Origin: Strigamia acuminata
Taxonomy: Eukaryota; Arthropoda; Chilopoda; Geophilomorpha; Linotaeniidae
Assembly: GCA_949358305.1 (NCBI GenBank)
Contig: OX442315.1
Span: 30,158,427 to 30,222,426, forward strand
DNA length: 64,000 nt
Reading direction: 5' to 3'
Shown: one piece after another, positions 32,430 through 63,335 of the stretch
Position numbering within the stretch: position 1 is the first letter of the stretch
How the letters are laid out: the number at the start of each line of letters is the position of its first letter
Made by a program: the position numbers and the translations under genes
The notes under the pieces: generated by a model
Told to the model about the DNA's origin: nothing
The model's input: the letters and a program-made list of their open reading frames with translations, nothing else
Databases searched by the model: none

Positions 32430-33145
32430 GTCGTGAATTTGCACAACTTTGCTGTGTATTTGCCGTGATTTTCTGGCAAATTTATCGTGAATTTGCGGAA
32501 AATTTGCTGTGAATTTGCGGAATATTTGCTGTGAATTTAGGGCAAGTTTACTTTGAATTTGCGGCGAATTTGGGACGAATTTGCGGCAAGTTTGGGACGT
32601 ATTTGGGGCGAATTTGTGGCAAATTTGCGATGAATTTGGGGCGCATTTGCGGCAAGTTTGGGGCGAATTTGCTGCAAATTTGCGGCGAATTTGCGGCGAA
32701 TTTGCGGCGAATTTGCGGCGAATTTGCGGCAAGTTTGGGGCGAATTTGCGGCAAGTTTGGGGCGAATTTGCGGCAAGTTTGGGGCGAATTTGCGGCAAGT
32801 TTGGGACGTATTTGCCGTGAATTTGTGGCAAATTTGCGGCGAATTTGCGACGAATTTGGGGCGAATTTGCGGCAAGTTTGGGGCCAATTTGCGGCAAGTT
32901 TGGGGCCAATTTGCGGCAAGTTTGGAGCGAATTTGCCGTGAATTTGTGGCAAATTTGCGGCGAATTTGGGGCGAATTTGCGACGAATTTGGGGCGAATTT
33001 GCGGCAAGTTTGGGGCGAATTTGCGGCAAGTTTGGGGCGAATTTGCGGCAAGTTTGGGACGTATTTGCCGTGAATTTGTGGCAAATTTGGGGCGAATTTG
33101 CGGCGAATTTGCCGTGAATTTGCCGTGAATTTGCCGTGATTTGAT
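32430..33145. repeat. 12-bp minisatellite in the left arm of the DNA transposon
   Basis: About 60 tandem copies of a 12-base unit alternate between GCGAATTTGCGG and GCAAGTTTGGGG types, with a higher-order 24-base and longer pattern (GACGTATTTGCCGTGAATTTGTGG returns several times). Because 12 is a multiple of 3 and the unit has no stop, up to six frames stay open for 80-250 codons. The apparent proteins are four-residue repeats and should not be annotated as genes. Confidence 0.9.
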
Positions 33146-33244
33146 GCAAATTTGGGTCAGATTATGTACAATTTTGAAACGATTTGTTGCGACTTTTGGG
33201 AAACTTCTTGCCCATTCTTATTGGCAAGAAGTTGTGATAATTTA

Positions 33245-46565: not shown

Positions 46566-47570
46566 TGTAATGAGCTCAAATTACTGTGAAGAATATTAAC
46601 AATAAAACTAAACTCATTGATGCCGTGCCAGGACTTATACAAATACTTCTCAAAATAACTTAATATTAACTCAAATGATAGGAGAAATAATGACTCAATT
46701 ATTTCTCAATTAACAGACGATTTATTCAAACTTAGAATAAACACTAAATCGAATACAAGATATTATTTTGTGATAAACGGATAAATTAAATGACTGAAGA
46801 AATAATTTACTAAAAGAAATATAATTAAAAGCAAAGGAAAATGATAAAGAATCCAGTCGATTCGACGACTCCACTTCTCGGGAACGCCGAACGCTTGGAT
46901 TCGCTTCACTCGACGCTCGGCTCGGCCTCGACGTTCCTTCAACACGGACTCAATTCCGTTCCAACTACTTCCTCGTGACTCGTTCGGGCTCAATCCCGCT
47001 CTCTTCGTCCTCTCCAGGTCGCAACGTCGTCGTCGCGGCGTCGTTGCGGCTGATTCCGCACAACAATCTCTCACACTCGCGCTCACTTCGCTTCGTCGCG
47101 AGTGAGAAGTCTCAGTCCAACAATGGCTGTTGGCCAAGAATAGAAATCCCTCCAAACAATACTTGTTTGGCAAGATAAAAATCCCACTGTCACTAACTGA
47201 AGTAACAGCAAGAAATATCTCACAAATCGCTCTGGCAATCTGCAAGAATGAGTCCAAATACTCTGACAATCTTTCACTAAATCGGCTTGTAGAATGGTGT
47301 TTTCTCAGGAAGATTTTGGTGACTGGTTGCTCTCAAAGTAGGTTTCAAACTGAGGAGTTTTTCTGCTCCTCACAGGAAGTGTTTCCTGCTCCGGGAGGTT
47401 GCGGGCTGGTTTCCTTGGCGACCACCCACAATTCCTCCCACCCTGCCTAACTCCCTTTATCTAGACAGGAAATCATAAAAAATATAAAATAAAATAAAAC
47501 AATCTCCAATTTAATATTTTATTTCGGGCTCATTCCCGACACTTCATTAGTGACCACTAGGGTCACTACA
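46566..47570 (-). repeat. 3' LTR (left copy)
   Basis: On the element's sense strand this LTR starts TGTAGTGACC at 47570 and ends CATTACA at 46566. It contains the shared hairpin motif (47524-47539), a terminal inverted repeat AGTGACC/GGTCACT near 47550-47568 and an AATAAA candidate at 46726-46721. It is the same length as the right copy with an offset of 13,922. Confidence 0.95.
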
Positions 47571-47586
47571 CCTCCCCTCTTTTTAG
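47571..47586 (-). promoter_or_regulatory. 3' polypurine tract (plus-strand DNA primer site)
   Basis: On the sense strand the sequence CTAAAAAGAGGGGAGG lies immediately before the 3' LTR. This is the position and composition expected of the RNase H-resistant primer of plus-strand DNA synthesis. The same 16 bases occur again at 51544-51559. Confidence 0.85.
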
Positions 47587-47614
47587 GAAGGTTCTCCGAT
47601 TCTTCCTTCACTTC

Positions 47615-50600
47615 TCACTTCTCGATTCGGAAAACTGACTCCGGAGTTGGAGCTTCGCTTTCGGAAACCGAAAATTTTGGCAGATGCTGGGTTGGTCCCG
47701 AGGTGGCGCCATTGTTGACATGGAGCCAGACTTCTTTGATGAACTTGGTCCTCGGGAATACTCGGTCATAATCGATGTCATATTTTTCGCGGGATCCGGT
47801 GGGTGGTCTCCGCACCGCAACTAGTCGTTGATGCTGAATTATGCGTTTAGGCTCTCTGACAGCATTCTCGAGCCACTTCAATGCCTCATGGCATAACGTC
47901 GCATTATAGATAAGTAGAGTTCGCGCGTATTCGGGGAATCTCAGACCTGGATACAACTGTTTTATTTTCCTGTAGTCTTGGTTTGGATTCTTTTTCGTCC
48001 CTTTAATGGCTGCCGAACTTCTGCCAGACGCTGTTTTTTGCGAGCTTCCACTAGCTCTATTTAAGGGCTCATTCCCTTCGACATCAAACATCTCAGTATC
48101 GGTGGTCAATTTCAACTCAACATCGGATTCTGGAGCTATTGCTTTTTTGGTTGGCTGGTGGCTCGGCGTGGCAGTCATAAAGACTGTGGGCACCGCCCCT
48201 CCCGCTGCTGGTGGGTCAGCCACTTGCTGCGCACACGTCCCAAAATTCCGTTGCAGTTGCAAACTCTGTCTTCTCAGAATCCATTCGCCCCGCAGTCTCA
48301 GCATGCACTGCCCCGATGTTTCTCCCGTTTTAAAAACTTCTCGTTCCAATTGGGCCCGGATGACAGGTGGGTCTCCCAATACTGTTTTCCAGCTGTCGAA
48401 CAACTCAGGTGGGATGCCCATTGCTGACGTCCATAGGAAACTTGTGGCGATCAGCGATGCTTCGACCGCTTGGAAAACTCCTGGAAACAAAAGTCTTATT
48501 AATGCCACTGACATTTGCACTTCGAACCAAGCTAGCCATTCTTTGGTTCTCAATTCGGTGGGTTGGGCGACGAAGGCTTGAGCGCATCTCCGTCGTTCAT
48601 TTAGTGATTCTGCTAATTGGGCTTGCTGGTACTCGTCCATCGTCGGGGTCAGAAGTCCTTGGTTACATAATGGAAATTTCAGATACATTGTCCACAGCTG
48701 TCGATAGTATCTATCGAAATCTTCGGCTAATTTGACTGATGGGTCTATCGTGTACATCACAGTGGCTACTGATGGAATTGGCAGTGATAAGTCCGTTTGG
48801 GGAATTGGTTCCGTAATTGGCTGCAAGTGAGGGTGAGGCACCCCCAAGGCGGCACTTGGCGTAGCTTTTGGTTGTACCTTCCTTGGATCTCGCATCCTCG
48901 GGCGCAGTATTCGCGATGGTCCTTTTTTTCGCGCTGGTTCCCTTGCCCTTTTCTCCCATGCCTGGGCTAAGGCCTCGTCAAGAGTCGGCAACTCTCGGCA
49001 GCTGGAAATCTCTGGTGATGACACTCGCGGCGTTGGCGTTGGCGGGCACGTGGTTGGAGTCCAGGTAATAGGAGTGTGCGTACTCGGTGGTGGTGTCTTT
49101 GGCGCCTGGTCCGGTCTTGGAGGGGTGGCCAGCGATGGTTTCTGTACTTCCTGCTGTCTTGGCGGGGTAGTAGGTGGTGTTCGTGGCCCTCTTTTGTTGG
49201 TTTCACCTCCCTGTTGTTTTTCAATGTCGTGTATGACTGTCGCTGTTGGCTCCCGTTCCTCCAAAATGCGAACAGTCGTTTCAGCCAATTGCTGCTCTTC
49301 CTCCGACTCAGGCGATGGCGAACGTTGACACTCGTCCATTACCACGTATTGATCTAGCTCCATCTCATGTGCCGTCAAATACTCGTCCGACGAACTTCTG
49401 CGAATTTGCACCTGTAGTGTCTCATCTTTACTTGCCGAAATTGTCACTTTTCTTGCTGGGCGCATTTCTGAATAGCGGTGTGACGACCGTGGGCGCTTCT
49501 TTGTCCGCTCAATTCGATTTCCTTCGGCTGACGGACGCTTCTCTGTTGCTCGGTGGTGTCTAGGTACGTATTCTTGCTCTGTCGTTTCGTGTCGCCTCGA
49601 ATTCCTTTTCGGACTTATTTCCGAGCTTCGTTGATGCCTCTTTACTTCCCTCTCTGAATCTTTGTCTGTTCGACTTAATCTTTTCTCCATTTGCGTTTGA
49701 CGAGAGAAATATTGCCGTCTTGGACTTTTACTCCTTCGTCGGGGACTTTCTTTTCTATCTCGACTTTGACATCTTCTCGGACTTATTTCCGCACTTCTGT
49801 ACTCTTTTCGCCTAGATCTGAATTCCCTGGTATAATATTTTGGGCTGATTCTTCGAGGAGGAGTTGTCCTTTTGTGTCTCTCACTCCTGGAGTAACGAAG
49901 GGCTCCTCGTGATCTGGCTTCTCTTCCTCGCCGTTTGGTTTCCTCTTCTTCCGTTCTGACACATTTCAGAAACTCCACTTCCTCGTGCAATTCCTTCACC
50001 GTTTCTTCTGCCGCCTGCTCTAATGCTGCCTCCCACTCGTCCTGCTCCTGCCGCTGTTGTTTGGCGTACACGAGCGGTCCAAAATCCTCGGCTTGCGGCT
50101 CACCTTCTAAATTGAGCGGTGTGATGTTTTGGCCAATGAGTCCCGTCATATGGAGTTGGTGCATCTTGTACTGACTCTTTATGAAGTATGGCGGCTCTTT
50201 ATCTAACTCCGGGGAAGGCAATAAGGCCTGAGCTTCGAGGTAAGCTGTCTTCTCCTCCATATATTTAGCCGCTACTTCTGGTGCTCCGGCTTTCAGCTTT
50301 GCCATCACCTCTTCCACGAATTTAAATTTGTTTGTCGCAGGATTCTGGTATATTTTGAGATCGGCTGCTTCCTCCTCTTCTATTGGATATTCGTCCCCTA
50401 TCATCTGGTTCCAAATTGGGCCATGTGTGTCCTCTGTAATTGGGATCTGTCTCAAAACTTCGTGGAAACATGTTTTGAATCCTTTAAATAGTCGTTTCGT
50501 CGTTCCCCAAAATCTTTGGATGGCTGTTGTGAAGGCTTTGCGTGCTTGAAATGCTGTAAAACCTCTCTTGACGAATTCTCTCTTGTATCTGTATGGAATT

Positions 50601-50662
50601 CTCCCTCGATGGATATTCCTTGGCAATCTAGCCGCTCTCGAAATTCTTCCCCACGACGCCAT
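47615..50662 (-). CDS. Third ORF of the retrotransposon, RS-rich protein of unknown function
   Basis: This 1,015-residue frame lies between pol and the 3' LTR, where retroviruses carry env. I see no signal peptide, transmembrane segment or fusion peptide. The N-terminal about 120 residues are basic. A glutamate-rich, coil-prone part (about 200-250) is followed by an arginine/serine-rich part (about 255-400, including repeated EISPRR/EISPKR), a proline/threonine-rich linker (about 500-600) and a tryptophan-containing helical part (about 650-830). The last about 40 residues run up to the 3' polypurine tract. RS domains in other proteins bind RNA or splicing factors, so an RNA-related role is possible but unproven. 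The ATG has a strong context (GCCATGG) and sits 12 bases after a splice-acceptor-like site, so it is probably made from a spliced mRNA. Confidence 0.7.
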   Translation of the reverse strand: MASWGRISRAARLPRNIHRGRIPYRYKREFVKRGFTAFQARKAFTTAIQRFWGTTKRLFKGFKTCFHEVLRQIPITEDTHGPIWNQMIGDEYPIEEEEAADLKIYQNPATNKFKFVEEVMAKLKAGAPEVAAKYMEEKTAYLEAQALLPSPELDKEPPYFIKSQYKMHQLHMTGLIGQNITPLNLEGEPQAEDFGPLVYAKQQRQEQDEWEAALEQAAEETVKELHEEVEFLKCVRTEEEETKRRGREARSRGALRYSRSERHKRTTPPRRISPKYYTREFRSRRKEYRSAEISPRRCQSRDRKESPRRRSKSPRRQYFSRQTQMEKRLSRTDKDSEREVKRHQRSSEISPKRNSRRHETTEQEYVPRHHRATEKRPSAEGNRIERTKKRPRSSHRYSEMRPARKVTISASKDETLQVQIRRSSSDEYLTAHEMELDQYVVMDECQRSPSPESEEEQQLAETTVRILEEREPTATVIHDIEKQQGGETNKRGPRTPPTTPPRQQEVQKPSLATPPRPDQAPKTPPPSTHTPITWTPTTCPPTPTPRVSSPEISSCRELPTLDEALAQAWEKRAREPARKKGPSRILRPRMRDPRKVQPKATPSAALGVPHPHLQPITEPIPQTDLSLPIPSVATVMYTIDPSVKLAEDFDRYYRQLWTMYLKFPLCNQGLLTPTMDEYQQAQLAESLNERRRCAQAFVAQPTELRTKEWLAWFEVQMSVALIRLLFPGVFQAVEASLIATSFLWTSAMGIPPELFDSWKTVLGDPPVIRAQLEREVFKTGETSGQCMLRLRGEWILRRQSLQLQRNFGTCAQQVADPPAAGGAVPTVFMTATPSHQPTKKAIAPESDVELKLTTDTEMFDVEGNEPLNRASGSSQKTASGRSSAAIKGTKKNPNQDYRKIKQLYPGLRFPEYARTLLIYNATLCHEALKWLENAVREPKRIIQHQRLVAVRRPPTGSREKYDIDYDRVFPRTKFIKEVWLHVNNGATSGPTQHLPKFSVSESEAPTPESVFRIEK
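48063..48078. repeat. Shared-loop hairpin in ORF3 (AAGGG/CCCTT stem)
   Basis: Plus strand: arms AAGGG and CCCTT pair perfectly around CTCATT. This member has a different stem from the others but the same loop. Confidence 0.8.
49609..49624. repeat. Shared-loop hairpin in ORF3 (TCGGA/TCCGA stem)
   Basis: Arms TCGGA and TCCGA pair around CTTATT. A second, 4-bp version (CGGA/TCCG) lies at 49778-49791. Both encode SEISP/AEISP in ORF3. Confidence 0.8.
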
Positions 50663-51404
50663 GGCTTCTTGGGTCTGTATAAAACATTATTAACTTCAAT
50701 TTTCTCTCAAATTCATTGTATTTTATCTTTCTCTGATGTGTGTGTTATTTTTGCGTATTTATCTCGATTTTGAGTTTTATTATTCTAAATTTTCTCACAA
50801 GATGGCGCTCCGTGCTAATTTTTTGTGATAGGAGTCCTTTTTATACCACTCTTTTGCAATTTTTGGCGAATAATTAGCACTTTCGTCATATAAAACCAGT
50901 TATTTACGTGATAACTAATTTTATTTTAACTTATTTCGAGACATTCGACTCCTTTTCCTTTTAAATCGTGATTTCGCCGAACTTGTCCCGTAGTAACGAC
51001 ATATTTCGTCCCGTCTTTTCCACAAAAATTTAAGCGCTTTCAAATAACACACCCGATGAGAGAAAATACTTCCTTATTCATTTATATTTTCGACACATTT
51101 CGATTTTACTACCTCACTGTGGTCCTGTCTTTTCGGTGGTGGTGTTTTCCGTGGTTCGAACATCTTGAGATGAACTTCCGCTTAATCGGACCCTTCTTTC
51201 ACTTGGCTGCACACTTTTCTTCGTTTTTTGGTCGTTTTCCCTCTTGTTCTTACCGACTGTTGTTGTTAGAATCCGGGATAACTTTTCTAAACTTGTTGTT
51301 GTTTTGATGTCAAGTTAACAAGTGAGATTCGTCTCGACCAATCACGTTCGAGCTGCGACGTCGTCCACTTCCGGACTCCCGAGTGACGTCGCTACCTTCT
51401 ATTT
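50663..51404 (-). other. Spacer between pol and ORF3 in the retrotransposon
   Basis: This 742-base stretch has no long sense frame. It ends in a pyrimidine-containing tract and an acceptor-like TTTTATACAG (50684-50675) next to the ORF3 start. It probably acts as intron or leader for ORF3 expression. Confidence 0.5.
50675..50684 (-). promoter_or_regulatory. Candidate splice acceptor for ORF3 mRNA
   Basis: TTTTATACAG on the sense strand, preceded by the branch-point-like TTAATAAT, ends 12 bases before the ORF3 ATG. I did not find a convincing donor in the short leader; it could lie inside gag. Confidence 0.5.
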
Positions 51405-54400
51405 TTAGAGGTAGTCTGGAGGCTTAATCCTCCCCCTATCTCGAAGTGAATATTTCTTCAAGATAGCTTTTTTCTTGACTTTTTTAGGTTGTTTTTCACG
51501 CAAATCTTGATAAAATTTCTTTATTTTCTTCTTTTCTACCACTCCTCCCCTCTTTTTAGAAAAAGACGCAACTTGTTCATCTGTTTCTAAACTTAAGTCC
51601 TGTGGAAAAAGTGGCAAATTTTCTTGCGTGTTGTCATTGGAATTTGTATCCAACTCCTCGTCGCTCTCCAAATTGTTATCCTTTTCGCCGCTTCTTTGTT
51701 TACTTGAAACTTGAGAACTCACGCCTGCTGTGTCTGAACCTGACAAATCCTGTAATTCCAGTTGTTGTTGTGATGTTTGTGGATCCTGCAAACTTTGTGT
51801 GTTATCCAAAGTGTGAGATTCTTGTGCATCTTCTAAATTTTGCGAATCTTGCAAACTTTGTGTTTGTTTCAAAGTTTGTGATTCCGCTGAATTACTATTA
51901 TTCATCCGATTCATTTCAGTGGTCTGCGAATTTTCTGTCTCCGTATTTTCTTGTGTTTCGGATGTTGTTGGCTCATCAAATAATGTATTAATTATTTTTC
52001 CATTCGGATTGCTCTGAGTTTGATCCTTTTCCCAAATTTCTTGATTAAATTCCGGGAAATAAGGTGATAATTCGGACATGTGAATGGAGCGAAAGATCTT
52101 ATTATCTTTTAGCCGTCGCAGCTTCACTGCTCCTCCTTGGTGGACTTGGATGATCACATATGGTCCGCTCCGCTTGTCGGATAATTTCGCCGAAATCCCT
52201 TGTGACGCTTTTGATAATGGGTGATCATCTTTCCATACCAAATCATTTGTTTTAAAGTCGTCAAACTTTTTATCCATCTTGTGATTTTGCACTCGTTCGC
52301 GCAAGTCGGTTATGTGCGCCATCATATGGTGATATGTATCTCTAATTATTTTCTCCAGTCGTTGGATGTAAATATGCGGCTTATTTGGGTCTATTTTTGC
52401 AATTCCATCCAAAATCCTTGGATCCCAAGGAATCCTAAATTCTCTACAGCAATTCAAGTATGCTGGAGAATAATCGCGGCCTGTTGTTGCCGTTGTGCGT
52501 ATGCTAAACGCAATTTCTCTTAAATATGTGTCCCACCTTTTGTGAATATCTGTGAAAATTGACAAAATATACTTTAAATCGCGGTTGGTCCTTTCTACCG
52601 TGTTGGCCTGCGGATGATATGGCGACGTAAATCGCGGAGTAATTTTGAATTTTCTACAGAATTCGTGGTATATTCGGGCCTTAAATTGCGGGCCGTTATC
52701 TGACACGATTCGGAGCGGGAATCCCCATCCCATACACGTGTTGTACAGACAATCCGCTATATCTTGTGCGACGGGGTCGGATAATGGGTAAAGTTCCGGC
52801 CATCTGGTGGCTATATCCAAAATTACTAAAATGTAATTGTTTCCTTCATCAGTTCTAATCAATGGTCCTACCAAATCTATACTTAGACACTCAAAAGGTG
52901 CATATGGGCCAATTTGCGCTGCTTCTACTCGTGTTTTAGTCCGAGGTTTACACGCCTGACACCGCGGACAGTGTTTAATAAATCTGGTGGTGTCACGTTT
53001 GATTCCGTCCCACGTATAAATCTGTCGCATTCGATAAAGCGTCCTCGCAATTCCGCAATGGCTTGCGAGCGGGTGGCCGTGCATTTGCCATAATACTCGG
53101 AATCTTAGTGATCTCGGTATCACGACCTTCAGGGCTCGAGAATCCTCGCTTAAATCATCTGACAATGTTGGATGGTATTTTAATAATAAATCCTCTTCTA
53201 ACATGTGTTTAGTCGCCAACATGCGATAATTCTTCTTTTGTAATGGTGTTGTTACGTAAGCTGGAAATTGTTCTGTCTCGAGGTAGTATCGCATTGATTG
53301 GCAGTGGCGATCCTTTTTTTGATGCTCTATAATTTCTTCGCGGGTCGGAGGCATGCAATCTGCCTGCTCCGTGACTTTTGCAATGAATGCTGTCACCATT
53401 TCGCATTCGGAAGTCGGCAAATATTGAACTTCTTTAATTTTCGGACTTATTTCCGACTCTTCTGCCGGCGCATCATACATGTGACTCCAATATGCCGTGA
53501 CTTGCTCGTCTACTAATCGTTCTTCTTCCGACTGAGGTTTTGGCAACTGATTCCAGTTACCCACGACCCATTTTCGTGGTTCTGTCGGGCAGTATTTTAA
53601 GTCACCGTCGGCTTCTCCCGTCTCTTCGTTGTCGCAGATGAGTTGAATTGGTGCTCTAGATAAGGCGTCTGCTAATGTGTTGGCAGTCCCTTTCAAATAT
53701 TGGATTGTAAAATTATAAGACATCAATTCCATCTGCCAACGGGCGAGACGTCCAGCTGGCTCTTCCAGTCTCATCAACCATTTTAGCGCCTCATGATCCG
53801 TCTGCACAACGAAACTTGTGAACTCCAAATATGGTCTAAATTTTCGGAGCGCCCAAATTACCGCCAAACATTCGAGATCCGTGGCGCCGTAATTAAGTTC
53901 TGCCTGTTGCAGACATCTACTGAGGTACACACACGGTGATTCAATCATTTGTCCATCAATTTCTTTGATCTGCATCAAGGCAGCACCCAATCCTTTCTTA
54001 CTCGCGTCTGTCCTTACGATGAATGGTTGGTGTAAATTTGGCAAGTGCATAGTTTTGGCATCGGTCAGTAATTGCTTAATGTTATCAAAGGCAACTTGGT
54101 GTACTTCCTCCCAAATAAATTCTATCCCTTTCTTCAGGAGTGGGCGTAGAGGTTCGGCCACTGTGGCCAGATTCTTGAGAAGTCTATGAAAAAAATTGAC
54201 CATGCCAAAAAATCGTTGTAACTCTGTCAAATTTTTTGGCGCTGGAAATTCCTTTATGGCCGCTACTTTGGCTGGGTCTACGCTTAAGCCGTTGATTCCA
54301 AGTTTGTACCCTAGAAATTTTAGTTCCTTCCTGCAGAATTTTGACTTTGTTGGGTTTACATGCAATCCAGCTTTCTGTAATTTTCCTAAAACTGAATCTA

Positions 54401-56714
54401 GATGTTTCATGTGTTCTGCGTACGTTTTTGATACGATCACAATATCGTCAAGGTAGGCCCAAGCATATTTTCGGAATGCTTCGCCTAGTACCTTTTCTAT
54501 TAGTCGCTGAAAAGTGGTTGGCGCATTGACCAGTCCAAAAGGCATGACGTTAAACATCAGTCGGCCTTGAGGACTCCAGAATGCTGTTTTCGGACGGTCT
54601 TCCGGTCTCAAATCTATTTGCCAGTATCCTTTCGTTAGATCAATGGTAGAAACCCATTGAAATTCGCCGAGTTCTCTTAAAATTTCTGTTATTGTCGGCA
54701 TCTGGGGCGGGTCATACAGAGTGTGTTCATTCAGCGCTCTGTAATCAATACAGAGACGTGGCTCTGAACCTGGTCTCATTACCAACACAATCCTTGTCGC
54801 ATAATCGCCTTCTGCAGTTGTTACATAGCCCTTATCAATCATTTCTTGGCATAATGTCCGCAATATTTCCCTTTTTTGTGGATTCCAAGATTTAAAAGGA
54901 ACCCTTATTGGTTTGTCAGTGTCTAAATTGATGGTGTGCTGTACCACATGAGTCTTGCCTGGATTTTTACTCAAAATTTTCTCATATTTCTTCAATACAT
55001 GCTCTAATTGTAAAGCTTCTGTTAGTTGCAGTTTGGCTTCTTCTATCATGTCATGCAAGCCATTGCCAACTTTCAATCTCGCTTCAAATGCGCAAAAACT
55101 ACTCTCTTTTCGGAATGTTTTTCGCAATGATTCTGGCTCTTCCAGTTTCTTCTGCTCATATTTATCCATGATGAATTGTGGCATATATGGTTGTGGCACG
55201 TCGATCGTTGAAATAAAGTTCCACTTGCCGTTGAGCGGATTGGGCTGTATTTTCATTCGTTTCATGGCATCATTGCCAACCAACATGAATTTCATGTCGT
55301 GTGGTAACACGAGGAAATACTGTTGCATCATTCCATGGGTCCAACGAATCATCATCCTTATTGTTCCCATCGGTTGCACTTTTTTATCTGCTGTATTTAC
55401 AGCCATATTGGCCTTGACGGGCCACACTTCTTTTTCCAATCCCATCGCCTGAATTAATGGCCATGAAACACAACTACGGTTGGCTCCTGAGTCTAGCATG
55501 GCAGCGATGGATCCTTGTTCTGTTTGGAGGTCTATTGTTGTCATCCCTTCCAAAACATCTTCTTCTGGCAATAATATATTAAAAATTCTGATGCGTGGTC
55601 CTTCCGGCTCCAATGTTGTTAACTCTTTCAATAATGGATCCCATTCCACAGGCTCAGTTGGTGTATCTGTCATCCATGCTGCTAGTGATGGTGTTTCCTC
55701 ATAGGTCTCTTTTACCTTTGCCCAAAAAATTGTTGCTTCATTTTCTTGTGTGATTTCCACATTTTTAAGGGCTTCCGTCACTTCTGCTGTGAAATAAGTT
55801 CTATTTGTTTCATAGATTTCTTTTATTTTTGGACAATTTTCCAATTCTACTGGTGGAAATTTTATTCCTACTATTTGTCCACATTCCATTTCACAAATCA
55901 TTTCTCCTCTTTTTGGCATTGTGCCAATTGCTTCTGGTGACGTGAGTGTTACTGGAATAGTTGTGTTTTTTAGTGGTCCATTGTCTTTCAGAATGTTCAT
56001 TTTTGATGAAGTTTCGGCTTGTTCCAGTTTAGAGTCCGTCACTGGTTTTTGTGTCGGATATCTCATCCCTACGACTTCGCCGTCTTCAAAGTTAAAGACT
56101 ATTGTCCCTTTTCCACCTTCTAAAGTTCCTATCACTTTATGTGATTTTTCAGCTAATTCTGATTGCACATATTCTCCAGTTTTGGGGTCTTTGATGAATC
56201 GTGCTCCCTTAGGCGCTTTTGCTGTTGGTGGAGTTTCTTGGGTATTTTCAGTCAAATTCTCGGGTTCCGCTGATGTTTTCAATATTAATGAAGTCTCTGA
56301 TATTTCTCCATCTAATGATCGGTCATTCTGTAAATTTCCACAATTTTCCGAATTTTCCGGCAGTGTTGTCTGCATGTTTTGCGAATTTTCAGAGTTTTTC
56401 AGCAAGTCCTTTGATTCTGATAATGTTTCTGATATTAACAGCGTTTCCGTCATGGCTTCATTTATTGGCTGGACCTCCGATAATCCATCCGAATCTTGTA
56501 CCATTTCGATTGTTAATTCTGATGTTGGTTGGGCTTGTAGCAGATTTTCCGAAATTTTTGTTGGCGCGAGCTCCACTGCTTTTATTGAGCCCGCGCGTTC
56601 AAGTTTTTTGTGATACTTTCGGATAAGGAATTTACAAGTTGCTCCATTTCTTCTGCAGACATCAATCTTTTCGGGTGTGGACATTGTCGCGCCCAGTGCC
56701 CAATTTGTCCGCAA
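51405..56714 (-). CDS. pol: pol polyprotein: protease, reverse transcriptase, RNase H, integrase
   Basis: The frame from its first methionine encodes 1,769 residues; translation is expected as a gag-pol fusion by -1 frameshifting, entering upstream in the 56582-56714 overlap. Domains in order: about 380 residues rich in S/T/E; retropepsin with LDSGANRS (about 408); reverse transcriptase with LCIDYRALN, MPFGLVNAPTTFQ and YLDDIV (about 755); RNase H with RTDASKKGLGAAL (about 901) and TDHEALKWL; integrase with an HHCC zinc finger (H...H...CPRCQAC, about 1213-1255) and a D,D,E core in IDLVGP, VSDNGPQF and NTVERTNRD (about 1279, 1340, 1371). A GPY/F module (GPYVII, about 1520) follows. I see no chromodomain. 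The roughly 220-residue tail is acidic and glutamine/serine rich. Confidence 0.95.
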   Translation of the reverse strand: MRTNWALGATMSTPEKIDVCRRNGATCKFLIRKYHKKLERAGSIKAVELAPTKISENLLQAQPTSELTIEMVQDSDGLSEVQPINEAMTETLLISETLSESKDLLKNSENSQNMQTTLPENSENCGNLQNDRSLDGEISETSLILKTSAEPENLTENTQETPPTAKAPKGARFIKDPKTGEYVQSELAEKSHKVIGTLEGGKGTIVFNFEDGEVVGMRYPTQKPVTDSKLEQAETSSKMNILKDNGPLKNTTIPVTLTSPEAIGTMPKRGEMICEMECGQIVGIKFPPVELENCPKIKEIYETNRTYFTAEVTEALKNVEITQENEATIFWAKVKETYEETPSLAAWMTDTPTEPVEWDPLLKELTTLEPEGPRIRIFNILLPEEDVLEGMTTIDLQTEQGSIAAMLDSGANRSCVSWPLIQAMGLEKEVWPVKANMAVNTADKKVQPMGTIRMMIRWTHGMMQQYFLVLPHDMKFMLVGNDAMKRMKIQPNPLNGKWNFISTIDVPQPYMPQFIMDKYEQKKLEEPESLRKTFRKESSFCAFEARLKVGNGLHDMIEEAKLQLTEALQLEHVLKKYEKILSKNPGKTHVVQHTINLDTDKPIRVPFKSWNPQKREILRTLCQEMIDKGYVTTAEGDYATRIVLVMRPGSEPRLCIDYRALNEHTLYDPPQMPTITEILRELGEFQWVSTIDLTKGYWQIDLRPEDRPKTAFWSPQGRLMFNVMPFGLVNAPTTFQRLIEKVLGEAFRKYAWAYLDDIVIVSKTYAEHMKHLDSVLGKLQKAGLHVNPTKSKFCRKELKFLGYKLGINGLSVDPAKVAAIKEFPAPKNLTELQRFFGMVNFFHRLLKNLATVAEPLRPLLKKGIEFIWEEVHQVAFDNIKQLLTDAKTMHLPNLHQPFIVRTDASKKGLGAALMQIKEIDGQMIESPCVYLSRCLQQAELNYGATDLECLAVIWALRKFRPYLEFTSFVVQTDHEALKWLMRLEEPAGRLARWQMELMSYNFTIQYLKGTANTLADALSRAPIQLICDNEETGEADGDLKYCPTEPRKWVVGNWNQLPKPQSEEERLVDEQVTAYWSHMYDAPAEESEISPKIKEVQYLPTSECEMVTAFIAKVTEQADCMPPTREEIIEHQKKDRHCQSMRYYLETEQFPAYVTTPLQKKNYRMLATKHMLEEDLLLKYHPTLSDDLSEDSRALKVVIPRSLRFRVLWQMHGHPLASHCGIARTLYRMRQIYTWDGIKRDTTRFIKHCPRCQACKPRTKTRVEAAQIGPYAPFECLSIDLVGPLIRTDEGNNYILVILDIATRWPELYPLSDPVAQDIADCLYNTCMGWGFPLRIVSDNGPQFKARIYHEFCRKFKITPRFTSPYHPQANTVERTNRDLKYILSIFTDIHKRWDTYLREIAFSIRTTATTGRDYSPAYLNCCREFRIPWDPRILDGIAKIDPNKPHIYIQRLEKIIRDTYHHMMAHITDLRERVQNHKMDKKFDDFKTNDLVWKDDHPLSKASQGISAKLSDKRSGPYVIIQVHQGGAVKLRRLKDNKIFRSIHMSELSPYFPEFNQEIWEKDQTQSNPNGKIINTLFDEPTTSETQENTETENSQTTEMNRMNNSNSAESQTLKQTQSLQDSQNLEDAQESHTLDNTQSLQDPQTSQQQLELQDLSGSDTAGVSSQVSSKQRSGEKDNNLESDEELDTNSNDNTQENLPLFPQDLSLETDEQVASFSKKRGGVVEKKKIKKFYQDLREKQPKKVKKKAILKKYSLRDRGRIKPPDYL
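51544..51559 (-). promoter_or_regulatory. Internal copy of the polypurine tract
   Basis: The sense sequence CTAAAAAGAGGGGAGG near the end of pol is identical over 16 bases to the 3' polypurine tract at 47571-47586. It may serve as a second plus-strand primer site, as central tracts do in lentiviruses and Ty1. It is also coding (KKRGG). Confidence 0.55.
53441..53456. repeat. Shared-loop hairpin in pol (TCGGA/TCCGA stem)
   Basis: Arms TCGGA and TCCGA pair around CTTATT, inside the linker before the integrase zinc finger. It encodes SEISP in pol, the same residues as in the unrelated ORF3. Confidence 0.8.
56564..56609 (-). promoter_or_regulatory. -1 ribosomal frameshift signal at the gag-pol junction
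   Basis: The slippery heptamer A AAA AAC (56609-56603 on the sense strand) is in the correct gag phase. A six-base spacer follows, and then a 10-bp hairpin with one G-U pair: arms GCGCGGGCTC (56596-56587) and GAGCTCGCGC (56573-56564) around a 13-base loop. A -1 slip moves from the gag frame to the pol frame, and the gag stop is 19 bases after the heptamer. Confidence 0.9.
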
Positions 56715-59700
56715 TTATGGCATGGTGCATTTTCTGGAGTCAACTTTATTTGGTTGGCCTTATTGCCGTCATCAGTGCTACTTGGAGTTGAAGTTTGTTC
56801 AGTTTTTTCTCCAATTTGCGATTTATTATTTTCTTTTTTCAAATTGAAATCGACTGAAAATGGTTTTGGAAGGAAGGACGTATTTCCTTTCATCTGTGGC
56901 TGCAAACTCGTTTGCTGCGGTTGCCTCACCTGCATTGGAGGCTTATATTTTGTTATTGCTGGATTATTTTTCGTGAATAACACACTAGCAGCATCCATCA
57001 ATTTGTCTACTTCTTCTTCTGTATATTCGGCCAGCATTATCTGAGTATCTCCAATCGACTCACTGGATTCACCCGGGTATTGTGTCCATTTGACATTTGG
57101 TCGCATTGGTATTCGTGGCTGTGGATAAGGAGGATGTCCACTCTCTCGTTTTTTGGTGGAGGTTTCCTCTCGTAACAGCGAGAATTGAGAACGCGGGCGC
57201 ATCATTTTTGCACCAGCTCGAGTGTAGTCTGACTGGTGTCGTTGTTGTTCATCTCGTGCTCTTTGTTCTTCAATTGGAATGTCTGAAGCGTACCGGTCGT
57301 CAATGTACATTTGGTGGTTTCGTATGAATTGCGATAATTTTTCGAAGGAACTGGCCATTGGTGCATCTACCATTCGCAACACTTGCTCGGAAAAAGGAGT
57401 CAGGCCATTCCTGAATTTTCTGTCTTTGTCGAAATCGCTAATATGATATGGGAGTTGGGTAAACAAATCTTCTGTACGTCTTAAATACGTGCGAATGTCT
57501 TCTCCCAACGTCTGTTTATGATTATCCCAATATTTTATCATCATGGCGTTGGATTCTCCATATTCCTTCATAAAAGCTTTTACAAATTCATCCCAGTGTG
57601 TGAAATTATTTTTTCGCAACCAATTTGTTGCACTTCCAACCAGCATTTTCGGAATTAATTTTTTCAAAGTTACGTCTGGGTCCATCTCGTGATTTATAAC
57701 TAGATGCATAACTTCATCCAGAAATTGGGTACCAGCCTGCCAACCTCCATCAAACATATCGGGAGTAATTCGGTCCCATTTGATTTGATGAGATGGGGTG
57801 TAATGGTGAGTCCAATTGCTTGAACAATATTTTCGAATTAGTTTTCTTAACATTTCCTCCATTTCCTGAGATTTCGAGGGGATTTGAGATAGTCGCGAAT
57901 CGATCTGTCTTGAGATAATTTCTTCCAATTCCTCCGTGCTTCTTGGTAAAGTGCGTGGGTTAGTTGGCGGTGGATCTCTATCGTCTTGTCGAAAATATCC
58001 TCCACGTCTCCTTTCCTCACGTGATCTGGAAAAATCAGAGTCCCGCTGTCGGAAATGATCCGAATTTGAGTATTTTTGATCATTTTCGTACTCTTTTTGC
58101 TGTGTTGGTGGCGGACTCGACCGTGATCTTCTCTGGTCTCTATATGAATCGTCACGACGTCTATTCGAGTCGTCGTATCGTCCACGTGAATCATCACGTC
58201 GCCTCTGTGAATCGTCGTATTGTCCACGTGAATCATCACGTCGCCCCTCCGAATAGTCACGTCGTCGGTACGAATTATCGTGTCGATCCTGTGAGTTGTC
58301 ACGACGTCCTTGTGATTCTCTTTGGGTATAACCCTCATACCAATAGGAGCCCCTTTGCTGTCGTGATTCGTCTTGATAATCAGATCGTTGACTTGAATTA
58401 TTTCTTTCCATCGACTCATTTCGATTTAAATTGTGCTGTCCTGTTGCTTCGTAATTACGTTGTTGACGCGTTTCGTTGTTGAAGCAAGCAGCACCTTGTT
58501 GGTCCGTTTCTTGTTGATAACGCGACTCATTTCGCGGCTCTCTTTCATATTGTGATCGTGTCTCGTTGGAAAATCGTACTTCAGTGTGCGTGTGAATTCC
58601 TTGTTGATTACACGACTCATTTCGTGGATCTACATTTTCCGGTTGCTGGGAATATTCGCCTTGTAGATAATCATTGTAATCCCTAACTTTCGTATAACTG
58701 GCTTGTCCAGTTGCTTCATCATGTCCAGTCGCAGCATTTTGGTTGCTGCTTTTATCTTGCTCTGGAACTTCTTGATCGTGTTGAAACTTTTGTTTTTCAT
58801 TTTCGCGACTTATTTCGCGTTGCCTATCTCTTTCATTAGCTGCTGACAAGTGTTCAACTGCTTCTTCCAACGTATATTTACGATGGTAACAAGGATCGTT
58901 CTCATTTATTGGTTTTTCTGTGTAAACGTCAAATGATTTTCCTTCATTTTTTGTAGAAGATACTCTGACATTTTCAGTTTCCATCTTTTTGGGCTTATCC
59001 CAAATCTGCGGGTCTGCTGGATCTAATCCTGTCACTTTACCTTGTTTTTTGTCTGCTGCAGCTGATTGATTTGTTAGATGCTGACGATTTCTTCGATCAA
59101 TTATGTCCAATACGTTTGGATTTTTGGCTGGTGACATAGAAGCACGTTTGGAGTCTCTTTTTTCATCCATTTCACCTTTCCTTTTTAAAGAGTTCCTAGA
59201 CGATTCTGGTGATAAATTCACTACTTCAGGTCGGCGAGGTGGAATGTTGCTCGGCACTTGATACTGACATTGTGCGAGATATTTTAGTTCTTCATTTTCT
59301 CGGCGGACTCTTTCCGCGGCTTCTTGTGCTTCAAGAGCAGCTTGACGAAGGTAATGGATTTCCCTGCTCTCCGCCGACTCCATGGCCTTTTGCTTTGCCA
59401 GCAATTCTTGCTTTTCGGTTTCCAAACGGACTTTTTCCGCTTCTATCTTCCGATTTTCTTCAAGAATTGCCTCTCGCTCCGCCGCCGCTTGCGCTTTTCG
59501 TTGTGCACGTAATTCTTTTTGCTCCGTTTCCTGACGGAGTTTTTCCGCTGCCAATTTGTTCCTCATCGTGCGCATTTCTGCTTCGAGTCGGTCTTTGGTA
59601 GCACGAATTTCTGCGTCCAATTGATCTTTCTTTGCGCGAATATCTTCATCTGTTGTTTTCTTGGCCAATTCTGCCTCGAATTTCGCTTGTTTGGCGTGGC

Positions 59701-60364
59701 GTTCCTCTAACTTGAGCCGTTTCAACATCTGGAATTCTTCGGAATGTGCCAGTTGCAGTCGCCTTGCTCGATCGGCCATTGCTGCCGTTATTTGTGCCAC
59801 GTCTTCATCAGAAAGCTGCACACCTTCCTCATACTGCTGGTGACGCTCCTGGAGACTGTCTTCCATCTCTTTCATGACATCTGCGATGCGTTGGCGAGCT
59901 CTCGCTAATTTATGGCGGGTTGGGGAGTTTTCTCCTGAACTTTCCGCCTCATCGCGGGCACGTCCTGACGCTTGCTGCTTGTAGGCTCGCACTAGTCGAC
60001 CACGCTTCCTTGCTACAGCGATGACTTGCTCCAACGTCATGTGAGAAAGGTCTATTTTGCTTGTTGGAGTCGAATCCACCGTGGCTGGCGTGTCGCCATG
60101 TTGCGACGAAGCTCCTGAGATACTTGATTTTCCAAGCAAATCTTGGGACTCCTCTCTCGTTTGTTTTAGCCAAAATTCTCCCTGCCGTTCAGGCGATACT
60201 TCCAGACGAAATTCCTTGCTCGTCATAGCCTGGGTGTCATCTGCATGGTCCGACTCGGATGATGATGAAGGATGCACATTGGCTGCTCCTGTGGTCCTTC
60301 CGCCTCGTGTGCGAGGTCCGCGGCCGTTTCCCCGTCCTCTCCTCGAATCTTGTGGCTGCGACAT
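56582..60364 (-). CDS. gag: gag protein, unusually long (1,260 residues)
   Basis: The frame starts 124 bases inside the element from the 5' LTR. The N-terminus has RG-rich repeats, then an acidic linker. A long charged coiled-coil-like segment follows (about 165-375, rich in A, E, K, R and Q), then a glutamine/asparagine/arginine-rich part, and tandem (R/Q)RRDDS(R/Y) repeats (about 690-760). A capsid-like helical region (about 830-1090) contains the WxxFxxxFxxxY-type pattern of Retrotrans_gag proteins. It closes with one CCHC zinc knuckle, CHNCGQIGHWARQC (about 1215-1228). Typical Ty3/gypsy gag proteins are 300-500 residues, so the N-terminal 800 residues are extra. The gag stop lies in the loop of the frameshift hairpin. 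Confidence 0.88.
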   Translation of the reverse strand: MSQPQDSRRGRGNGRGPRTRGGRTTGAANVHPSSSSESDHADDTQAMTSKEFRLEVSPERQGEFWLKQTREESQDLLGKSSISGASSQHGDTPATVDSTPTSKIDLSHMTLEQVIAVARKRGRLVRAYKQQASGRARDEAESSGENSPTRHKLARARQRIADVMKEMEDSLQERHQQYEEGVQLSDEDVAQITAAMADRARRLQLAHSEEFQMLKRLKLEERHAKQAKFEAELAKKTTDEDIRAKKDQLDAEIRATKDRLEAEMRTMRNKLAAEKLRQETEQKELRAQRKAQAAAEREAILEENRKIEAEKVRLETEKQELLAKQKAMESAESREIHYLRQAALEAQEAAERVRRENEELKYLAQCQYQVPSNIPPRRPEVVNLSPESSRNSLKRKGEMDEKRDSKRASMSPAKNPNVLDIIDRRNRQHLTNQSAAADKKQGKVTGLDPADPQIWDKPKKMETENVRVSSTKNEGKSFDVYTEKPINENDPCYHRKYTLEEAVEHLSAANERDRQREISRENEKQKFQHDQEVPEQDKSSNQNAATGHDEATGQASYTKVRDYNDYLQGEYSQQPENVDPRNESCNQQGIHTHTEVRFSNETRSQYEREPRNESRYQQETDQQGAACFNNETRQQRNYEATGQHNLNRNESMERNNSSQRSDYQDESRQQRGSYWYEGYTQRESQGRRDNSQDRHDNSYRRRDYSEGRRDDSRGQYDDSQRRRDDSRGRYDDSNRRRDDSYRDQRRSRSSPPPTQQKEYENDQKYSNSDHFRQRDSDFSRSREERRRGGYFRQDDRDPPPTNPRTLPRSTEELEEIISRQIDSRLSQIPSKSQEMEEMLRKLIRKYCSSNWTHHYTPSHQIKWDRITPDMFDGGWQAGTQFLDEVMHLVINHEMDPDVTLKKLIPKMLVGSATNWLRKNNFTHWDEFVKAFMKEYGESNAMMIKYWDNHKQTLGEDIRTYLRRTEDLFTQLPYHISDFDKDRKFRNGLTPFSEQVLRMVDAPMASSFEKLSQFIRNHQMYIDDRYASDIPIEEQRARDEQQRHQSDYTRAGAKMMRPRSQFSLLREETSTKKRESGHPPYPQPRIPMRPNVKWTQYPGESSESIGDTQIMLAEYTEEEVDKLMDAASVLFTKNNPAITKYKPPMQVRQPQQTSLQPQMKGNTSFLPKPFSVDFNLKKENNKSQIGEKTEQTSTPSSTDDGNKANQIKLTPENAPCHNCGQIGHWARQCPHPKRLMSAEEMEQLVNSLSESITKNLNARAQ
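58184..58281. repeat. Short hairpins in the gag RDDS repeats
   Basis: Two copies of a perfect 6-bp hairpin ACGTGA-ATCA-TCACGT (58184-58199 and 58226-58241) and a related ACGA-ATTA-TCGT (58270-58281) occur in the tandem-repeat part of gag. The loop is different from the CTYATT family. They could follow from the coding repeats alone. Confidence 0.6.
58410..58425. repeat. Shared-loop hairpin in gag (ATCGA/TCGAT stem)
   Basis: Arms ATCGA and TCGAT pair perfectly around CTCATT. Confidence 0.8.
58521..58536. repeat. Shared-loop hairpin in gag (CGCGA/TCGCG stem)
   Basis: Arms CGCGA and TCGCG pair perfectly around CTCATT, read in gag as RNESR. Confidence 0.8.
58611..58626. repeat. Shared-loop hairpin in gag (CACGA/TCGTG stem)
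   Basis: Arms CACGA and TCGTG pair perfectly around CTCATT, read in gag as RNESC. Compared with 58521 two stem bases have changed on opposite arms and pairing is kept. Confidence 0.8.
58804..58819. repeat. Shared-loop hairpin in gag (CGCGA/TCGCG stem, CTTATT loop)
   Basis: Arms CGCGA and TCGCG pair around CTTATT. It is read in gag as REISR, a different codon phase of the motif from the NES copies. Confidence 0.8.
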
Positions 60365-60466
60365 CTCGTTTTAGTCACAGAAAAGAAGAAAGAAACAGAA
60401 TACTCTATCACAAAATAACTTTTATCACACAAAATTGGTCCCTCAACTGAAGATAAGTTGTTAAGG

Positions 60467-60486
60467 TTCAAATAACGGGCCCCCAA
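60467..60486 (-). promoter_or_regulatory. Candidate primer-binding site
   Basis: Two bases after the 5' LTR the sense strand reads TTGGGGGCCCGTTATTTGAA. TGGGGGC plus CG matches the pattern of tRNA-Pro primer sites, and TTTGAA resembles a T-loop complement, but the middle does not fit a standard T-arm. The tRNA is therefore not certain. Confidence 0.5.
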
Positions 60487-60487
60487 G

Positions 60488-61492
60488 TGTAATGAGCTCA
60501 AATTACTGTGAAGAATATTAACAATAAAACTAAACTCATTGATGCCGTGCCAGGACTTATACAAATACTTCTCAAAATAACTTAATATTAACTCAAATGA
60601 TAGGAGAAATAATGACTCAATTATTTCTCAATTAACAGACGATTTATTCAAACTTAGAATAAACACTAAATCGAATACAAGATATTATTTTGTGATAAAC
60701 GGATAAATTAAATGACTGAAGAAATAATTTACTAAAAGAAATATAATTAAAAGCAAAGGAAAATGATAAAGAATCCAGTCGATTCGACGACTCCACTTCT
60801 CGGGAACGCCGAACGCTTGGATTCGCTTCACTCGACGCTCGGCTCGGCCTCGACGTTCCTTCAACACGGACTCAATTCCGTTCCAACTACTTCCTCGTGA
60901 CTCGTTCGGGCTCAATCCCGCTCTCTTCGTCCTCTCCAGGTCGCAACGTCGTCGTCGCGGCGTCGTTGCGGCTGATTCCGCACAACAATCTCTCACACTC
61001 GCGCTCACTTCGCTTCGTCGCGAGTGAGAAGTCTCAGTCCAACAATGGCTGTTGGCCAAGAATAGAAATCCCTCCAAACAATACTTGTTTGGCAAGATAA
61101 AAATCCCACTGTCACTAACTGAAGTAACAGCAAGAAATATCTCACAAATCGCTCTGGCAATCTGCAAGAATGAGTCCAAATACTCTGACAATCTTTCACT
61201 AAATCGGCTTGTAGAATGGTGTTTTCTCAGGAAGATTTTGGTGACTGGTTGCTCTCAAAGTAGGTTTCAAACTGAGGAGTTTTTCTGCTCCTCACAGGAA
61301 GTGTTTCCTGCTCCGGGAGGTTGCGGGCTGGTTTCCTTGGCGACCACCCACAATTCCTCCCACCCTGCCTAACTCCCTTTATCTAGACAGGAAATCATAA
61401 AAAATATAAAATAAAATAAAACAATCTCCAATTTAATATTTTATTTCGGGCTCATTCCCGACACTTCATTAGTGACCACTAGGGTCACTACA
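60488..61492 (-). repeat. 5' LTR (right copy)
   Basis: This copy is identical to the left LTR wherever I compared it, including ends, the 168-codon shadow frame, the CTCATT hairpin (61446-61461) and the CTCAAT variant (60907-60920). It should hold the promoter of the element. The open frames inside are shadows. Confidence 0.95.
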
Positions 61493-63335
61493 CCCCTTAT
61501 CTGGTTTTCTTCTCAGCTTAATTTTTATTTAGATTAAATTTAATTCATCACCAACAACGTCAAATATGTCAACAGGATACGTCACTGCTATGATTAATTT
61601 CTTACTGCTCTCAGTACACACAAAGCCTAATCCGAAAAGGAGAAATCCAGCTCTTGTGATTAAAATGAAGTGTAAACACTTTTTACCTAAGCTTCTTTAT
61701 AAATTTTAAATGAATATTCATAATTTATGGTGGTTTTCAATCAAAATTTCACCATACATTTAACAAATGTTTTTCTTTCTGAATTTATTCAATGAATAAT
61801 GAAATGGATTTAAATATTTATATTATTGCTTTTTTCCTCCGAAGGACAATGACTGAGTGTCTATTTTTTTTAGAAATAAATAATTTAAAGTGAACCTAAT
61901 TTTTTCACGTTCATTTATTTTTCATTTGCTGTGTGTTCAGAGCTCAAGTCATAAAAAGTTCATTTTAATTTCTTTGTTTATACACGGACTTAACATTGGG
62001 AATGTTGTAAAAATAGCCATTTTATAAATAAATAAATTGGAGTAAGCCGTTAATTGCATGAACTTTGTACCTACAAGAGTCAAGTCGTAATATTTTACGG
62101 ACAAAAGTCGTGTAAGGGCTATAAAAGAACATTAGATTTGGAATTTGGTATCGGTATGTTGATTGCAAAAACTAATTTTGTTAGTTCAGGTGTTATGTGC
62201 TGGAGGATTATTATTAAAGATCATATTCTGGCACAACAACCAATGAAATTCGAATTGCAACCAAAACAGGAAATGGAATTCCAAGTGCCACTTCCTGTTG
62301 TTGCCTCTGGAAAGCAGTGAACGACACTGGTACTCATCTAAGACAGTTCGCGTCTTCTGTAATACTACTATTATGTTATCAATTTCAAAATGATTTCGAT
62401 TTTGAAGGTGTCAATTTAGGCTTAAAGTAATAGATTGAATTTTGTACAAAATTGCAAACAGACTTAGCATTTTTGCTACTGCATTTTCTGCGACAACGAG
62501 TGAGTAAGATCTGACAACAGGAAGTGATTCGAGCAGAGCAAAAAATAAAAATAAAATTATAAACAACCTATCTGTTGAGATGCCAATTTTGGAAATAGCC
62601 CTAAATCAACAAATATAAGTCCAGGTGTTGGCTGGAAACAAGTTGACAGACATTTAATCTCAGTTAAAGTTTTGAAAAGTTATTTTTATGCTGGTTAAGT
62701 GCAATTTAAGAGCCCATCCACATCATGACTAAACAATAGTTGTCACTTTGTGATGATTGTGTTTAAAATAATAGACATCGATTTTACTCGAATTTCATAA
62801 TAAACTTTCATGTACAGGAAGAAATTTTTTTTTTAAAAAAAAAAAACGTTGCAACTGCACAAAAGCGTTCGTGACATCAAAAAACAGCAACAACATCTTA
62901 AAACTATTTTCAGCTTTGCACACTTTCCACAAAATTGACGTAGGCGCCAAACTGTTTTGGATGCGTGGGGTTTGTTCTTAATTTGGTTTAAACAAACAAA
63001 AGTTCTCTGGTAATTCCAACTTGCTAGTTGTTTTTTTTTTTTACATAGTTAGCGCCATGTATGTCATTATTCAATTTTTTTTAATACCGTCACCTCTTCA
63101 ATTGATGTGTTAAAAGGGTGGGGGGAAAAATGGTCAAATTAATAAAATATATAAAATAAATGGCGTTGTTTGATTATTTTACAATCCACATTATAACGAC
63201 AAATACAGTTATTAAATTAATTCAGTATCTACTCGGTGGTATACCGTTGAATAACTAAATCTGACACTTCCTTGTTTCTTTATTGTTACACTATTGTTCA
63301 TTGTTTAACAATGATTTCTAAATGATACAAGAAAA
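61493..63335. other. Intergenic region between the retrotransposon and AK8
   Basis: This is AT-rich sequence. A plus-strand frame at 62054-62320 (88 codons) ends in a protein-like stretch (LQPKQEMEFQVPLPVVASGK), but I recognise nothing in it and it could be chance. The last 300 bases should contain the AK8 promoter. Confidence 0.4.

Follow-up and report, generated by a model that had tools for sequence, protein, structure and literature searches.

Repeated short hairpins with a defined loop in the sense-strand RNA of one group of Ty3/Gypsy retrotransposons of Strigamia acuminata

The window analyzed here is a stretch of 64,000 nucleotides (nt) of the genome of Strigamia acuminata (contig OX442315.1, positions 30,158,427 to 30,222,426) and it carries, on its minus strand, a Ty3/Gypsy long terminal repeat (LTR) retrotransposon with identical LTRs, gag, pol, and a third open reading frame (ORF), ORF3. 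The sense strand of this element contains short hairpins with a defined loop in numbers beyond chance; they belong to one group of elements, they are found both in coding sequence and in the LTR, and they use all three codon phases. An earlier sequence-only reading of this DNA had noticed some of them, in two codon phases and in the LTR, and had taken them for a dispersed recognition site. Of that claim the defined sense-strand loop, its presence in coding sequence and LTR, and its restriction to one element group stand, with recognition as the natural interpretation, the codon phases become three once hairpins with loops of five nt are counted, and the zinc knuckle as specific partner and sequence-neutral stems are not supported as stated, as described below. 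Loops on one strand, a spread over the whole RNA, and presence in one element group fit multi-site recognition by a protein of the element. What we infer from the sequence about partner and effect is that the hairpins may be family-specific, multi-site RNA recognition elements, most likely packaging or ribonucleoprotein-assembly signals bound by Gag or ORF3, and we put the chance of this slightly short of even.

Hairpins were counted on the sense strand of one unit consisting of the internal part and one LTR (13,922 nt). In this unit AAURAG (R, purine) occurs 20 times and is enclosed by complementary arms of at least 4 base pairs (bp) in 12 cases and of at least 5 bp in nine, whereas 1000 dinucleotide shuffles gave means of 0.06 and 0.013, respectively, with a maximum of 1 for the longer arms. 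The chance estimate of 0.01 given earlier for the loop with 5-bp arms was therefore right. With AWURAG (W, A or U), 16 of the 31 occurrences have arms of at least 4 bp and 11 have at least 5 bp. The antisense strand of the element has AAURAG six times, once with arms of at least 4 bp and never with 5. Outside the element (both strands, about 49 kb), none of the 77 AATRAG occurrences has arms of at least 4 bp, in agreement with the sequence-only reading, and AWTRAG outside the element in the window has them at 2/135, one of these with at least 5 bp. The rest of the window (46.6 kb, plus strand) holds one hexaloop and two pentaloop hairpins against shuffle means of 0.12 and 0.66. Codon shuffles (1000 per gene), in which protein and codon usage were kept, reached at most one hexaloop hairpin in gag, two in pol, and one in ORF3, where four, three, and two are found, and at most two pentaloop hairpins in gag, where there are three; pol and ORF3 have no pentaloop hairpins and show no excess of this class. 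Among ten LTRs, hairpins with arms of at least 5 bp number four each in C1 and C2, three in C4, two each in the window, B3, and C3, and one in each of the other four (letters denote subfamilies of element copies), while 500 shuffles of each LTR gave means of 0.02-0.05 and maxima of 1-2. Since dinucleotide and codon shuffles, the check that the earlier reading had itself proposed, fall short of the counts, chance, base composition, and codon use are rejected as explanations. It is also very improbable that ordinary coding repetition is at work, by which repeated peptides (RNES in gag, SEISPK in ORF3 and pol) would give complementary codons by chance. Several sites do have these peptides in common, but codon shuffles that keep the peptides do not reach the counts, three codon phases are used, the residues flanking the peptides change jointly, and the LTR sites, site I at least, are outside ORFs, so that for LTR site I this explanation is contradicted.

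The assembled genome (237.5 Mb in 157 contigs) has 71 matches to the string CGGA-AAURAG-UCCG and none to its backwards control. When the lists were compared, 70 of the 71 had a listed pol or ORF3 match of the element family no more than 5 kb away, and the one that had none is at C5:15285198. A string with another stem gave one match (two for its backwards control) and a string with another loop gave none. The predicted local pairing of 13 of 14 motif hairpins has a median of 0.59, against 0.105 for 46 other 5-bp hairpins of the element (p 0.017), a difference that is qualified by the higher number of G-C pairs in the motif stems (3.1 vs 1.9).

All nine 5-bp hairpins noticed earlier are present, and they and all features given below are on the minus strand. 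UCGGG-AAUGAG-CCCGA, LTR site I, whose orthologues have compensatory changes, is at 61446..61461 in the 5' LTR and at 47524..47539 in the 3' LTR. In gag there are CGCGA-AAUAAG-UCGCG (58804..58819), CACGA-AAUGAG-UCGUG (58611..58626), CGCGA-AAUGAG-UCGCG (58521..58536), and AUCGA-AAUGAG-UCGAU (58410..58425). UCGGA-AAUAAG-UCCGA is found in pol (53441..53456, with UUGGA-ACAGAG-UCCAA in C) and in ORF3 (49609..49624), and AAGGG-AAUGAG-CCCUU is in ORF3 (48063..48078). The 4-bp case CGGA-AAUAAG-UCCG (49778..49791, ORF3) is also there, as is the variant read as CTCAAT on the plus strand, CGGG-AUUGAG-CCCG, with 4 bp at 60907..60920 in the 5' LTR and 46985..46998 in the 3' LTR. The remaining hairpins had not been noticed: ACGGA-AUUGAG-UCCGU at 60866..60881 in the 5' LTR and 46944..46959 in the 3' LTR; GGAGG-AUUAAG-CCUCC at the end of pol (51418..51433); the 6-bp AAAGAU-AAUAAG-AUCUUU in pol (52092..52109); the 4-bp hairpins UCCG-AUUAAG-CGGA between pol and ORF3 (51177..51190), UGGU-AAUGAG-ACCA with an additional U-G pair in pol (54771..54784), and AACC-AAUAAG-GGUU in pol (54900..54913); and three gag pentaloops, AACUGG-ACAAG-CCAGUU (58696..58712), UUUGGG-AUAAG-CCCAAA (58988..59004), and GCGGA-AAGAG-UCCGC (59303..59317), the last of which is kept in B2, C1, C2, D1, and D2 and not fully in A2.

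The loop pattern is wider than AAURAG and is described by A-(A/U)-U-R-A-G together with A-N-R-A-G, the length being chiefly five or six. Compared with the 16/31 AWURAG sites that have arms of at least 4 bp, other letters gave such arms at 2/37 sites for loop position 1, 0/10 for position 2, 0/124 for position 3, and 1/85 for position 6. Position 4 is a purine (other letters, 3/29) and position 5 is A or sometimes U (4/23). Thus A1, U3, and G6 of the hexaloop are nearly always needed. When the arms were moved out of register at most 1/31 sites was paired, except when the closing pair was dropped on both sides. The second class, the pentaloops A-N-R-A-G, is absent from the earlier reading. With arms of at least 5 bp there are ten ANRAG hairpins each in C1 and C2, three each in D1 and the window unit, two each in A2 and B2, and none in B1, where shuffle means for C1, C2, D1, and the window unit are 0.12-0.22; the strongest loop in C copies is AAGAG (7/31 sites with arms of at least 4 bp in C2, p 3e-9). 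Both classes interchange at the same LTR sites. Tetraloops ARAG show no excess in A-D (2/1207 with arms of at least 4 bp). Heptaloops with an RAG end have arms of at least 5 bp at 5/1316 sites in A-D and 5/1778 in E-H, and of at least 4 bp at 19/1316 vs 8/1778 (p 0.005), which makes for an at most weak class at 4 bp. Among 35 distinct hairpins the stem has exactly five pairs in 30 and six in five, and the closing pair is A-U in 21, G-C in seven, U-A in seven, and never C-G. The view of the stems as sequence-neutral is thus right only in part, since the pair next to the closing one is preferentially, and strongly so, G-C (27/35, against 59/244 other hairpins of the same sequences). Totals of distinct hairpins vary between analyses, namely, 45 for local pairing and wobble, 35 for stems, and 28 + 27 for the pooled comparison, because duplicates were removed by different rules and one copy, L015, was not in the first two sets.

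Pieces of 26 other element copies of the same genome were compared: 20 upstream pieces, the gag-LTR part of four more copies, and two distant families; the four downstream pieces are from copies already among the 20. Hairpins are present in subfamilies A, B, C, and D, although B1, in which no gag frame was found upstream, has two pol sites only. AWURAG has arms of at least 4 bp at 53/143 sites in A-D, window included, vs 3/184 in E-H and the two distant families (p 1e-18), and ANRAG has arms of at least 5 bp at 27/1428 vs 9/1993 (p 6e-5); both pooled p-values are too small because related copies were counted as independent. When the loop sequence is disregarded, A-D and the comparison set hardly differ in the rate of pairing. 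E-H are at background, with no hexaloop hairpin in 12 of 13 pieces, one in H2, and 0-2 pentaloop hairpins. E3 (L018) groups with D by reverse transcriptase (RT) and has one 4-bp hexaloop site, in pol; since its gag region aligns poorly and its two pentaloop hairpins with arms of at least 5 bp are at places that are empty in other copies, it was counted with E-H. No other family-specific loop of 3-9 nt was consistent in the 13 upstream pieces of E-H, nor was one in the two distant families. In L026 the pentaloop GTCGA has arms of 4 bp at 5/15 sites and of 5 bp at none (p 9e-8), and its close relative L024 is without them.

In the RT tree E1/E2, F, G, and H split from A-D and E3 with a support of 0.999, and the zinc knuckle was found in 17/21 pieces, the window's included, on both sides of this split. 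F1 (L019) has the same knuckle, CHNCGQIGHWARQC, and neither a hexaloop nor a pentaloop hairpin. The zinc knuckle, put forward earlier as a specific partner, is therefore unlikely to be the determinant. Host proteins that read stem-loops, for example Roquin, do exist, and a single response element can have six stem-loops that act jointly, as given in excerpts of PMC6145892. If A-D had recruited such a protein for export, localization, translation control, or protection, host recognition would explain repeated sites in the RNA. We consider this unlikely, however, because E-H share the same host and yet are at background, the most frequent stem version hardly occurs in the genome away from these elements, and the rest of the window is near background.

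Changes in the stems were followed between copies. LTR site I is 31 nt inside the LTR (33 in D) and is orthologous in ten aligned LTRs, with the stems UCGGG/CCCGA in the window, A2, A3, and B3, ACAGA/UCUGU in C1 and C3, and UCAGA/UCUGA in C2, C4, and D, and with the loops AAUGAG, AAAAAG, AAAAG, and AUAAG. Both sides changed at three of the five pairs and pairing was kept except for one broken pair in B2; these pairs were read by eye, the computed alignment having placed a gap inside an arm. A gag site has GCGGA/UCCGC in C, ACGGA/UCCGU in D, and GCGGA/UCCGU in A and B. The CACGA/UCGUG stem of gag in A and B was aligned with UACGA/UCGUA in C, an orthology that is less sure because of short repeats nearby. 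Compensatory changes are also clear at other places in gag and in the part of pol that separates RNase H from integrase. The residues that flank RNES in gag vary jointly by site (P-RNES-C, P-RNES-R, N-RNES-M, L-RNES-Y), which we read as what pairing requires. A second LTR hairpin with another loop also covaries: at 61040-61054 the window has CAACA-GCCAU-UGUUG where D1 has UAGUA-GCCAU-UACUA, a difference of three two-sided changes.

A number of results weigh against recognition of these hairpins as paired RNA, or limit it. The earlier claim that stems differ but stay paired is borne out between sites within the element; between copies it is borne out at several sites, though not significantly more than for control hairpins. 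Changed pairs were kept in motif and control hairpins at 32/87 vs 136/388 (p 0.80) in a first comparison, at 125/291 vs 342/879 (p 0.24) in a second, in which the register was sometimes wrong because AAUGAG contains AUGAG, and at 22/42 vs 99/229 (p 0.31) in a third, which replaces the second and counts each copy pair in both directions. Two-sided changes likewise showed no surplus over the controls, being kept at 7/19 vs 50/90, 64/105 vs 145/218, and 13/19 vs 44/59, respectively. Hairpins with other loops have two-sided changes as well, and 7/11 between the window and C1 are without the motif loop in the window. The one measure that exceeded the controls was, in the third comparison, the proportion of loop-keeping sites whose five pairs were all intact (32/49 motif vs 55/124 control hairpins, p 0.018); another 26 motif sites had lost the loop. 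At the 58410 site of A2 two pairs are broken by G-to-A changes at CG. Covariation as a property of the class is not supported, since none of the three comparisons showed an excess of kept pairs over control hairpins. It follows that sites turn over: in subfamilies A-D many sites retain both loop and pairing, others have lost them, and we suggest that selection acts on the sites collectively while individual ones come and go. Among one-sided near misses G-U is not favored (14 G-U vs 18 A-C), and wobble is therefore no proof that RNA is the acting strand. In not favoring RNA, these wobble counts speak for the view that the hairpins act in DNA, either in the single-stranded cDNA made by reverse transcription or, once the copy is inserted, as cruciforms. 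Such action in DNA is nevertheless improbable, because the sites span the whole transcribed element and we are aware of no DNA process specific for structure in which about 19 sites per unit would be used. The 54771 hairpin is weak evidence because it is within a conserved RT coding stretch. An ORF of 168 amino acids (aa) that is open across part of the LTR covers the 60866 and 60907 hairpins, and therefore site I alone lies outside all ORFs. The upstream pieces of D1 and D2 have one hexaloop and three pentaloop cases each, often with only four pairs kept, and ANRAG in E-H is at about twice the rate of any loop (0.0045 vs 0.0021). Finally, E-H are multi-copy and have gag and pol alike but lack the hairpins; elements of this type can therefore do without the signal.

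The RNA of the element carries its short hairpins, mostly with 5-bp stems, over LTR, gag, pol, and ORF3. On the reading that we prefer, recognition by a protein of the element, these would serve as repeated sites for an element-encoded RNA-binding protein. This would most likely be Gag, with ORF3 as the alternative, and by touching one RNA at many points it would pick out the genomic RNA and compact it into the particle, as dispersed packaging signals do. A bolder form, to which we give somewhat less credence, is that the hairpins make up an RNA address code of about 19 strictly defined hairpins per internal and LTR unit, with a switch between loops of six and five nt, in every codon phase and in the LTR, that would be read by the element's own Gag or ORF3 and would tell its RNA apart from the RNA that sister families make in the same nucleus. 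In packaging signal-mediated assembly of RNA viruses (MS2, picornaviruses, hepatitis B virus (HBV)), excerpts of PMC6281560 describe many stem-loops per genome with a common loop motif and variable stems. The element likewise has multiple stem-loops beyond chance with a common loop motif. Viral packaging signals bind coat protein, whereas the binder in the element is a candidate; on the other hand, the element's loop is strictly defined and its excess is visible from sequence alone. According to excerpts of PMC8677749, the pregenomic RNA of HBV, which is likewise reverse-transcribing, has packaging stem-loops with -RGAG- loops and GAAG/RAAG variants, a purine motif that ends in AG and lies in the 3' part of the loop in two of three HBV sites. 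The element loop AAGAG contains this RGAG. HBV loops and stems are irregular, whereas element loops are chiefly of 5 or 6 nt with A first and RAG last. The capsid proteins of HBV and the element are not known to be related, and the likeness is likely to be convergent, if the two are alike in function at all.

How LTR retrotransposons choose RNA for packaging is not well defined, as stated in an excerpt of PMC4974528. The RNA of Ty1 and Ty3 is likewise selected for packaging, by Gag as far as is known, but the RNA Packaging account of these elements, as excerpted, describes no dispersed repeated hairpin. The retroviral Psi, unlike the sites in the element, is one compact 5' region and is not scattered through the genome. 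In the stem-loops of Psi, a purine loop matters in the selection of genomic RNA by Gag, as in mouse mammary tumor virus (excerpts of PMC8096270). No description of the motif was found in the literature on repeated hairpins of LTR retrotransposons, such loop strings, stem-loop readers, and packaging signals, a search that mostly did not cover subscription literature. Tests of multi-site packaging signals have been difficult owing to the looseness of their motifs. In the element the motif is strict and in enormous excess, the hairpin-free sister families in the same genome provide a built-in control, and the binding and packaging predictions are therefore directly testable. If they are true, RNA structure shapes amino acids of gag.

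ORF3 (47615..50662, 1015 aa) has no Pfam match. Its N-terminal region (49913-50662, 250 aa) has relatives near A-D, E1/E2, F, and G copies, with identity down to about 28-29%, and none near E3 or H copies, among the matches listed, for which 150 of 911 genome candidates were scored. Rather than serving in packaging, the sites could be read by ORF3 protein so that unspliced RNA is exported from the nucleus or localized, much as through a Rev-type response element but with many copies of the site. ORF3 is large, has in subfamily A a middle rich in Arg and Ser, and occupies the place of an accessory or env gene. Next to A-D copies its frame tends to stay open over a greater length than next to F and G copies. 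Yet the N-terminal region is common to families that are at hairpin background, no RNA-binding domain was recognized in ORF3, and a single-sequence structure model of the N-terminus was too poor for use (mean predicted local distance difference test score 55.9), and we regard this reading as unlikely.

The element has the features of Ty3/Gypsy, namely, LTRs, a primer binding site-like sequence, a polypurine tract, gag, and pol in the order protease, RT, RNase H, and integrase. Its repeat blocks are of 1007 nt each and identical to each other; the 5' LTR is at 60488..61494, with the TG...CA repeat proper ending at 61492, and the 3' LTR is at 46566..47572, where it ends at 47570. The primer binding site-like TGGGGGCC follows the 5' LTR and the polypurine tract AAAAAGAGGGGAGG precedes the 3' LTR. 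The gag ORF (56582..60364, 1260 aa) has one CCHC zinc knuckle, and the pol ORF (51405..56714) has RT, RNase H, integrase, and a protease-like match that is below the curated cut-off. With the RT as query (361 residues), 113 of 3913 genome candidates were scored, all of 74-100% identity, and 20 copies among these 113, the window's own included, have the top score and 100% RT identity. These 20 copies and the identical LTRs in the window point to recent activity. No relatives of the element turned up in viral contigs, and no known RNA family in Rfam matched the window at the gathering score.

The 14-nt polypurine tract AAAAAGAGGGGAGG occurs twice, at 47571-47584 next to the 3' LTR and at 51544-51557 inside the end of pol, where it resembles a central polypurine tract. 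An inverted repeat, TAGTGACC...GGTCACTA, is contained in the initial 23 nt of each LTR (61470-61492 in the 5' LTR), with one change among ten aligned A-D LTRs. Elsewhere in the window, an ORF at 33439-36039 has Mutator transposase and YqaJ-type nuclease domains, and 32397-33149, where several frames are open on both strands and the protein sequence is repetitive, is probably a tandem repeat. The window also holds IER and Zer-1-like genes.

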